Shown here one piece after another: positions 17,763 through 52,041 of a stretch of DNA of 57,408 nt. Numbering within the stretch: position 1 is the first letter of the stretch; each line of letters starts with the position of its first letter. A program made the position numbers and the translations under genes. This DNA comes from Clostridia bacterium (GTDB taxonomy: Bacteria; Bacillota; Clostridia; UBA1381), in contig JAFSXU010000074.1 of assembly GCA_017443895.1 (NCBI GenBank), positions 1 through 57,408 of the forward strand, in the 5' to 3' direction. Under the pieces are notes generated by a model. That model ran no database searches and had not been told where the DNA came from. It worked only from the letters and a program-made list of their open reading frames with translations.

Positions 17763-18869
17763 CTATTTTTCAAATTCGTTTGCAACACTTTCAAGCAGTT
17801 TACGGATTTCCAAATGCTGTGGGCATATTTTCTCGCACTTACCGCATTTAATACAATCCGACGCCTTATTATTATCAACGGTTAAAACCGTATTATAATA
17901 ATAGTCCGTATTCCAGTTATTATACATAATCTTTTTATTAAGACACGAGAACAAATCAGGTATTCTTATATGCTTAGGACAGCCGTCAATACAATAACGG
18001 CACGCAGTACAAGGTATGTTCTTTAACTCCTTAAAAATTGTCTGAACCCTTCTAACAGCGTCCATTTCGGTATCTGACAACGGTTTAAAGTCCTTCATAT
18101 AGCTTATATTATCGTTCATTTGCTCCATATTGCTCATGCCCGATAATACCATCATAACGCCCTCAAAGCTTGCCGCAAAGCGGATTGCGTAGCTTGCAGG
18201 TGAGTTGTCCCCTAAAGCGTTGAATACCTCTTTTGCCTTATCGGGGATATTTACAAGATTACCGCCCTTTACAGGCTCCATAATTATAACCGGTTTATTG
18301 TGCTTTCTGCACACCTCATAACACTTACGGCTCTCAATTGCAGGGTCCTCGTAATCGACATAGTTAAACTGGATTTGAACGACCTCAATCTGAGGGTATT
18401 CGTTTAAAATCATATCAAGCACATCCGCCTTATCATGGAACGATATTCCAAAATGCCTTATTTTCCCCTCTGCCTTTAGCTCAAGCGCAGTTTCATATGC
18501 ACGGTGCTTTTTGAAAAATTCAAATATATCCTTATTCTGGGCATGCATAAGATAAAAGTCAAAATAGCTGACACCACAGCTTTTTAACTGATTTTCAAAA
18601 AACGGTCTTATCTCCTCATTTGAATTAAAATATACATTTGTGAGCTTATCGGTAAGCACATAGCTTTCCCTGTCATATCTGCTTGTAAGGCACTCTTTTA
18701 TATATAGCTCACTTTTTGAATCAACATATCCGTGCGCAGTGTCAAAGTAATTAAAGCCGTTTTCGATAAATGTATCAACCATCTTTGAAAACTCGACAGT
18801 ATCTACCTTACCGTTTTGCATTGGCAATCTCATACAGCCAAAGCCTAATTTTTTCTTTACCTTCTCCAT
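17763..18869 (-). CDS. Aldo/keto reductase with C-terminal 4Fe-4S ferredoxin domain
   Basis: A 368-residue oxidoreductase. Residues 1-275 form an aldo/keto-reductase TIM barrel (LGFGCMRLP, FDTAHGYVDSKSE with the catalytic Tyr, and DFYLMHAQNK). The C-terminus has two Cys-rich motifs, CTACRYCIDGCPKHI and CIKCGKCEKICPQHL, fitting two 4Fe-4S clusters. Such proteins are common in anaerobes and may couple NAD(P)H to ferredoxin-level electrons; the substrate is unknown. GGGAGGG upstream of ATG 18869 sets the start. Confidence 0.92.
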   Translation of the reverse strand: MEKVKKKLGFGCMRLPMQNGKVDTVEFSKMVDTFIENGFNYFDTAHGYVDSKSELYIKECLTSRYDRESYVLTDKLTNVYFNSNEEIRPFFENQLKSCGVSYFDFYLMHAQNKDIFEFFKKHRAYETALELKAEGKIRHFGISFHDKADVLDMILNEYPQIEVVQIQFNYVDYEDPAIESRKCYEVCRKHNKPVIIMEPVKGGNLVNIPDKAKEVFNALGDNSPASYAIRFAASFEGVMMVLSGMSNMEQMNDNISYMKDFKPLSDTEMDAVRRVQTIFKELKNIPCTACRYCIDGCPKHIRIPDLFSCLNKKIMYNNWNTDYYYNTVLTVDNNKASDCIKCGKCEKICPQHLEIRKLLESVANEFEK

Positions 18870-32554: not shown

Positions 32555-32752
32555 TTTAGATGCAAAAGTTTTAGGCTAAATTTTGCACTATCGTGCAAAG
32601 CGAAATATTTGCTCCGCAAATGCAAAATTTAAAACCTGCGGTTTTAAGCTAAATTAAATTCGCCATATTCAGCGTGCGAGGCACATTTAGCTGCCGTTAG
32701 GCAATTTAGCCGAGCTTGCTCAATTTAGCTCGCCGTCAGGCGAATTTAGCTG
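32555..32752 (-). repeat. tRNA-linked hairpin-array element, copy A
   Basis: A 198-bp element that is about 80 percent similar to 51721-51917 by eye. Along it are hairpins with arms at 32582-32588/32593-32599, 32607-32612/32616-32621, 32631-32636/32640-32645, 32674-32677/32681-32684, 32692-32695/32700-32703, 32712-32714/32719-32721 and 32731-32734/32739-32742. The last four are separated by the linker ATTTAGC(T/C). It begins directly after the tRNA-Arg terminator in the minus direction. No protein is encoded. Confidence 0.75.
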
Positions 32753-32787
32753 AAAACGACAGTATTCTATCGAATACTGTCGTTTTC
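32752..32787 (-). terminator. Terminator of tRNA-Arg
   Basis: GAAAACGACAGTATTC (32752-32767) pairs perfectly with GAATACTGTCGTTTTC (32772-32787). In the minus direction it follows the tRNA CCA end by one nucleotide and closes with TTTTC. Confidence 0.85.
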
Positions 32788-32788
32788 A

Positions 32789-32864
32789 TGGTACACCTAA
32801 GCGGATTCGAACCGCTGCACATAGCGTCGGAGGCTATTGCTCTATCCAACTGAGCTATAGGTGC
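32789..32864 (-). tRNA. tRNA-Arg (anticodon CCG)
   Basis: The minus strand folds as a standard cloverleaf. Acceptor GCACCTA pairs with TAGGTGT (G-U at 1:72), the D arm has AGCTCAGTTGG, the anticodon stem ATAGC/GCTAT holds loop CTCCGAC with anticodon CCG, and the T arm has GGTTCGAATCC. The discriminator is A and the 3' CCA is encoded. It decodes CGG. Confidence 0.95.
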
Positions 32865-51720: not shown

Positions 51721-51917
51721 TTTAGATGCAAGCTTTTTAGCTAAATTTTGTGCTGACGCACAAAGTGAAATATTTGCTTTAAGCAAATGTGAAATTTAAA
51801 ACCTGCGGTTTTAAGCTAAATTAAATTCGCTTATTTAGCGTGCGAAGCACATTTAGCTCGCGAGGCGTATTTAGCTGACGAAGTCAATTTAGCTCGCTCA
51901 AAGAGCGAATTTAGCTG
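51721..51917 (-). repeat. tRNA-linked hairpin-array element, copy B
   Basis: A 197-bp copy of the element at 32555. Hairpin arms lie at 51747-51753/51758-51764, 51772-51777/51783-51788, 51798-51803/51807-51812, 51841-equivalent GTGC/GCAC, 51859-51861/51865-51867, 51877-51879/51883-51885 and 51895-51899/51903-51907. Linkers read ATTTAGCT. Several stems differ from copy A in sequence yet still pair. It lies immediately past the terminator of tRNA-Ser(GCU). Confidence 0.75.
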
Positions 51918-51950
51918 AAAAAACGACTTGTCTAAACAAGTCGTTTTTTC
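51917..51950 (-). terminator. Terminator of tRNA-Ser(GCU)
   Basis: GAAAAAACGACTTGT (51917-51931) pairs perfectly with ACAAGTCGTTTTTTC (51936-51950). In the minus direction it starts directly after the encoded CCA. Confidence 0.88.
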
Positions 51951-52041
51951 TGGCGGAGAAGGAGAGATTTGAACTCTCGCGCCGGTTACCCGACCTACAC
52001 CCTTAGCAGGGGCGCCTCTTCGGCCTCTTGAGTACTTCTCC
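51951..52041 (-). tRNA. tRNA-Ser (anticodon GCT)
   Basis: The minus strand gives a 91-nt cloverleaf with a long variable arm, as expected of serine tRNA. Acceptor GGAGAAG pairs with CTTCTCC, anticodon stem CGCCC/GGGTG encloses loop CTGCTAA with anticodon GCU, the T arm has AGTTCAAATCT, and CCA is encoded. It decodes AGC and AGU. Confidence 0.95.

Follow-up and report, generated by a model that had tools for sequence, protein, structure and literature searches.

The window, by which we mean the whole stretch of 57,408 nucleotides of Clostridia bacterium contig JAFSXU010000074.1 analysed here, contains two chains of short hairpins joined by a constant linker, at positions 32555–32750 (copy A) and 51721–51916 (copy B), both read on the minus strand and both situated directly 3' of a tRNA gene, behind the palindrome that terminates it. 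In the sense of the tRNA, each copy begins with a tRNA carrying the CCA end, followed by a perfect palindrome whose ends are rich in A and in T, and then by the short hairpins. The host gene of copy A is tRNA-Arg(CCG) (32789–32864, minus strand; ARAGORN and Rfam tRNA), whose terminator, a perfect 17-bp palindrome at 32751–32788 (minus strand) recognized from the sequence and its folds, is at the same time the 5' hairpin of the element; a hairpin in this position is present in most members of the family. The left half (32647–32750, minus strand), defined by alignment with 28 relatives and by compensatory changes, comprises four hairpins (TTCGCC-TGAC-GGCGA, TTGAGC-AAG-CTC, TTGCC-TAAC-GGCA and TGTGC-CTC-GCAC), each preceded by a AGCTAAAT-type linker, (A/G)GCTAAAT, which are followed by one more linker, the fifth, and by the central sequence GGCGAATTTAATTTAGCT. 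On the plus strand the linkers read ATTTAGC(T/C) and start at 32685, 32704, 32723 and 32744, lying between the hairpins and adjoining the terminator palindrome. The preliminary description had correctly located the array at 32555, past the tRNA-Arg terminator, as well as the first two linkers, while the last two had been placed one nucleotide off, at 32722 and 32743. In the right half (32575–32646, minus strand) an inverted linker (ATTTTGC, ATTTCGC, ATTTAGC) stands behind each of three to four hairpins, and copy A ends with the box TTTTGCATCTAAA (32555–32567, minus strand). Similar boxes are found at other copies devoid of an ORF and are absent after all of the 60 autonomous arrays.

Copy B, which had been noted earlier at 51721 in the equivalent place after another tRNA, indeed lies behind tRNA-Ser(GCT) (51951–52041, minus strand; ARAGORN). 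Judging by sequence and fold, the palindromic terminator at 51917–51950 (minus strand) is again the 5' hairpin; it is followed by the left half with AGCTAAAT linkers, four hairpins and the centre (51814–51916, minus strand; alignment and compensatory changes) and by the right half with ATTTCAC and ATTTAGC linkers (51721–51813, minus strand). The two copies can be aligned over their whole length. The general layout is symmetric: about four linker-hairpin units, a centre, and then three or four further hairpins, whose linker is the reverse complement of the first. The family layout (5' hairpin, hairpins with direct linkers, centre, hairpins with inverted linkers) was recognized in copy A by a strict detector and in copy B by homology. 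Neither array of the window is followed by a gene of the S23 family, and for this reason we refer to both copies as ORF-less derivatives. The inversion of the linker midway, the S23 gene behind full-length arrays and the identity of the first hairpin with the tRNA terminator had not been mentioned in the preliminary description.

The hairpins are maintained by compensatory changes and the linkers by sequence. Compared with shuffled sequences, the RNA folds are markedly stable (z = −7.0 for copy A with its terminator and z = −6.9 for copy B, the terminator hairpin being counted in both). Across 29 left halves, taken from this genome and its relatives, the linkers are nearly invariant and the hairpin stems change on both sides, with 53 double-change cells observed vs. 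16.2 expected; the covariation score reaches 0.331 vs. 0.105 ± 0.015 after shuffling (none of 500 shuffles was as high) and collapses when the partners are slid by one column. Helix 3 is in poor register in this alignment (51% paired). Among 357 inter-linker segments of S23-linked arrays the mean stem is 4.08 bp long vs. 2.82 bp in shuffled segments, and swapping arms between copies, with linker and position matched, shortens the mean stem from 4.10 to 3.12 bp. The 5' arm of hairpin 1 pairs with the centre as well (93.6% of cells paired, four pairs with double changes), with covariation beyond that of most shuffles; in L137 and L140 all three segments involved are changed together. The earlier likening to an inverse CRISPR proved superficial, and a CRISPR-like array was ruled out: the hairpin "spacers" covary between copies of one inherited layout, and the linkers form symmetric inverted repeats. 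As to the background, the strict linker-agnostic detector found a single match in 2.13 Mb of shuffled sequence of this genome, and on the real sequence it returned the family arrays and low-scoring background without family linkers.

About 13 arrays were found in the approximately 78% of the genome that was scanned, with three linker classes among those linked to tRNAs. Besides copies A and B, full arrays follow tRNA-Pro(CGG), Gln(CTG), Ser(CGA), Pro(GGG), Lys(TTT), Ser(GGA) and Tyr(GTA), a truncated array start lies behind tRNA-Lys(CTT), and one array is about 490 bp away from tRNA-Leu(CAG). On contig C36 two arrays (L227 and L228) stand behind a CCA-ending sequence resembling the 3' end of tRNA-Met, and at C4:1-592 there is a full unit, with CCA at its start, then a terminator, an array and an S23 gene. 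The count of copies within 50 bp of a tRNA 3' end, proposed in the preliminary description as a check, gave 9 of about 13, all at intact tRNAs, where about 0.01 would be expected; the corresponding binomial probability (~3e-25) treats the copies as independent, which dispersed copies strictly are not. All nine are without an ORF, and the full unit of this genome belongs to a different dialect. The link to tRNAs postulated earlier is thus strong within this genome, whereas in relatives the arrays also occupy the ends of genes and sites behind promoters; the element favours tRNA ends without being confined to them.

Some further structures of this genome deserve mention. Downstream of tRNA-Leu(CAG), Leu(TAA) and Arg(CCT) (L005, L057 and L047, respectively) there is a different conserved structured repeat of about 200 bp, reading CCGAAAAAGGTC..GCAAGTCGCTC..TTGTAAACGCG; a repeat of this type also adjoins the left end of a truncated hairpin array (L236). 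Near tRNA-Leu(CAA) (L060, C46:20000-23000) tandem repeats of about 100 bp, each consisting of the tRNA 3' end and terminator, look as if several attachment sites had been left by integrases. The sequences preceding the two arrays of C36 (L227, approximately 17950–18082; L228, approximately 1265–1395) are nearly identical over some 130 bp, end with GATG(A/G)CCCACCA and are directly followed by the arrays; they had no match in Rfam, except for Gut-1 in the array, and are possibly a displaced tRNA-Met 3' end or a new RNA gene.

In relatives, whose contigs are mostly metagenome-assembled, the array is located directly upstream of genes of the PF05635/TIGR02436 family (S23, or 23S-rRNA-intervening-sequence protein, IVP). 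Strict arrays precede 60 of 101 non-duplicate PF05635 genes, a share that is no estimate for the whole family, as the genes were partly picked by similarity to array-linked proteins; downstream they occur in 4 of 97 cases, and in shuffled sequences in none of 505. PF05635 was found in all 11 proteins tested, and the one compared with PDB is related to 2rld (E 4e-31), with a weak relationship to 2gsc as well. The linker dialects of these arrays include GTGAAAT, AGTTATAT, GTGATAT, ATGAATTG, ATGAAGC, YCGATAT and others. When mapped onto a tree of 53 S23 proteins, the dialect changes 13 times (minimum 9, shuffled mean 35.7, none of 200 shuffles as low; near-copies contribute to this clustering), i.e., the linker dialect is co-inherited with the S23 protein. 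In a phylum-wide draw, 2 of 30 S23 genes passed the strict array detector, and S23 genes were flanked by short tandem words on one side and inverted copies of these words on the other, with a score of at least 7 in 16 of 30 cases vs. 5 of 300 shuffles and 0 of 29 outer controls. Ruminococcus bromii 5AMG, a cultured gut commensal, carries tRNA-Arg(ACG), a terminator, an array and an S23 gene in a row, and in a fecal phage scaffold (L451) an S23 gene and an array follow tRNA-Arg. A viral reservoir was considered and rejected; among the exact-motif matches read in IMG/VR contigs there was one real array (L429). Tandem words and their inverted copies also enclose S23 genes of other Firmicutes, Nostoc, Treponema and Monoglobus (L337–L366, L450, L452, L453); in the Nostoc, Treponema and Monoglobus plasmids this layout was seen by eye, and the Monoglobus gene is inside a type I restriction operon.

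A full unit is about 620 bp long and consists of the 5' hairpin, the symmetric array, often a promoter, and the S23/IVP gene. Between related units of different genomes the DNA homology ends at about −220 to −270, at the 5' hairpin, and at or just past the end of the ORF or its terminator, and the flanks are unrelated. Of the 60 strict arrays in relatives, 18 are directly behind a tRNA (ARAGORN; several more by eye), 5 behind a promoter whose −35 and −10 boxes are spaced by 17 bp (found by script, a few others being recognized by eye), and the rest behind gene ends or palindromes. The 5' hairpin varies with the site and at times contains host sequence, namely the CCA of a tRNA (L084, L180) or, from the end of a host gene, its final codons with the stop (L130, L182, L187, L202). 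In one pair of diverged species, the genome without the element (G055) reads ...AAATAAGATTTTCAAAAAGTAT and the other (G054) reads ...AAATAATTTTTTCAAAATTATTTGC in the same place, with the array behind it; this would suit a host end that folded back and was copied, which we offer as a hypothesis. An empty site for copy A was sought through uvrA synteny and was not found, uvrA being without a following tRNA in the relatives read; the NUDIX gene behind the G030 unit gave no usable site either, its orthologues being too diverged. Between close strains, neither insertion nor excision of a unit was observed. Mobility is nevertheless a reasonable inference from the dispersed copies. The units L181 and L183 are 99.5% identical in DNA from the array on, over more than 1.1 kb, but their left flanks diverge exactly from AGTTTTATTCGCC and L181 is without a 5' hairpin, which may reflect a deletion or an assembly chimera. 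In L146 (2006–2460) the array has expanded locally to several near-identical AGCTAAATTCGCCTGACGGCG units in tandem.

One of the linker dialects has been met before. Gut-1 RNA (RF01706) was described as a probable non-coding RNA of the human gut only, with unknown function (Weinberg et al., 2010; PMC2864571). Its 77-nt model with three hairpins scores above the gathering score on halves of GTGAAAT arrays (L227, L228, L117), reaching 70 bits with the two copies of this genome (L227 and L228), and matches left and right halves on opposite strands; Gut-1 is a piece of the GTGAAAT dialect. While it was described as a stand-alone human-gut RNA, in the present arrays it makes up one of two halves, occurs on either strand, is linked with tRNA ends and with S23 genes, and represents one dialect among several; this accounts for the larger structure to which Gut-1 belongs. 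In a literature collection covering few subscription journals, no paper was found that connects S23 genes with hairpin arrays or with Gut-1, or that brings Gut-1 together with tRNA ends and S23 genes. The earlier statement that no named element with this layout was known is therefore only partly right, one dialect being catalogued in Rfam; the window copies stay below the gathering score of 50 (14.1 bits for A; 35.9 bits for B, in the antisense of its right half, plus strand, 51738–51831).

We consider copies A and B to be, quite probably, ORF-less derivatives of a family of small selfish S23/IVP elements of gut Clostridia, lodged at tRNA 3' ends; the partnership with S23, the anatomy of the element and the placement at tRNAs are well supported. 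Among the functions proposed in the preliminary description the selfish repeat fits best, and the interpretation given there finds, as a whole, partial support. The unit could operate as follows. Its 5' hairpin lies where a host transcription unit ends, being in the tRNA copies the tRNA's own terminator, and transcription from the tRNA, a host gene or the element's promoter would expose the array as a folded strand. The pentameric S23 protein, a four-helix bundle, could then recognize on this strand its own dialect of the 7–8-nt linker, which runs directly in the left half and in inverted form in the right, and the putative S23-array complex might help the unit to persist or to be copied. Insertion would be harmless, since the 5' hairpin would restore the terminator, and the unit could settle at such sites. 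Binding of the array by S23, RNA rather than single-stranded DNA as the active strand, and the movement itself are what we infer. S23 is not known to have catalytic activity, so some other enzyme must move the element. S23 gains a specific, dialect-coded candidate partner sequence open to binding assays, and R. bromii 5AMG provides an example in a cultured gut commensal.

Other readings were weighed. The strong conserved structure with covariation, the classification of Gut-1 as an RNA in Rfam and the nearly constant location of the arrays of this genome downstream of tRNAs would suit a host-useful, Gut-1-like non-coding RNA, read through from the tRNA and cut from its transcript, with S23 genes borrowing it as a leader. 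This is unlikely, however, as a terminator palindrome stands between the tRNA and the array, each array strand is matched by Gut-1, the tRNAs differ between genomes, one genome harbours three linker classes, and many copies in relatives are away from tRNAs. In many tRNA-linked units a promoter is located between the array and the S23 ORF, so the array need not belong to the S23 mRNA. This argues against a cis-regulatory leader, in which S23 would bind the array of its own mRNA to set its level and the ORF-less tRNA arrays would be orphan decoys; despite the promoter-type units, where the array is the S23 5' UTR, and the switch-like alternative pairing of hairpin 1 with the centre, we regard this reading as rather improbable, all the more as it leaves the dispersal of ORF-less copies unexplained.

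It is very improbable that the arrays are REP/BIME-like repeats moved by a Y1 (TnpA-REP) transposase or MITEs of another classic transposon: the palindrome clusters at transcript ends are BIME-like and the genome has four Y1_Tnp matches, but what constantly accompanies the arrays in relatives is S23 and no transposase, and a REP-type tetranucleotide-hairpin layout was not noticed. Around the strongest Y1_Tnp gene (C6:11880), family arrays are lacking throughout C6:1-20000, and a RAYT-type Y1 gene flanked by repeats was not found there. Integrases target tRNA 3' ends, and this genome contains repeated tRNA-Leu 3' ends and arrays beside a displaced tRNA-Met-like 3' end; still, a landing site of tyrosine integrases, with the array as an attachment-site accessory, is the kind of explanation that we would hardly expect to hold, because most arrays are behind intact tRNAs with 3' ends not duplicated, the copies at promoters and gene ends have no tRNA core, and the constant gene is S23 and not an integrase.

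Our preferred reading, a small S23/IVP element, has a parallel in the intervening sequences (IVS) of 23S rRNA. To our knowledge, S23/IVP proteins and these intervening sequences have for decades been without an assigned function or mode of movement. The 23S rRNA IVS of Coxiella burnetii has an S23p gene, inverted ends and tandem heptads before S23p (PMC4990558). The arrays share with IVS the S23/PF05635 gene, the short repeated words upstream of it, the inverted ends and the harmless lodging in stable-RNA genes. Unlike IVS, they are found not inside 23S rRNA but after tRNA terminators, gene ends or promoters (the window copies after tRNA genes, the autonomous relatives in all three situations), with hairpins between the words and both sets of words upstream of the gene; the S23p ORF, lacking in the window copies, is present in relatives and on contig C4. 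We would put forward, tentatively and as a rather doubtful generalization, that S23/IVP proteins across bacteria mark out a single broad class of minimal mobile elements, each with one protein only, a non-catalytic pentamer that would recognize repeated words on a folded strand. In Clostridia the scaffold would be a hairpin array and insertion would take place at the 3' ends of transcripts, where the terminal hairpin may arise by fold-back copying of the host 3' end. PF05635 reportedly resembles Avd, an accessory protein of diversity-generating retroelements (PMC10053308); unlike in those, no reverse transcriptase was seen beside the arrays. The only RVT_1 match of this genome, a stand-alone reverse-transcriptase-like protein of 322 aa (C5:51283-51825, L367), has no array nearby, and a link to it is not supported. 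BIME, or REP clusters, are mosaics of palindromes at 3' ends of transcription units. The arrays resemble them in the clustering of palindromes at such ends and differ in having one linker word per element, a central inversion, and S23 rather than TnpA-REP as the partner.
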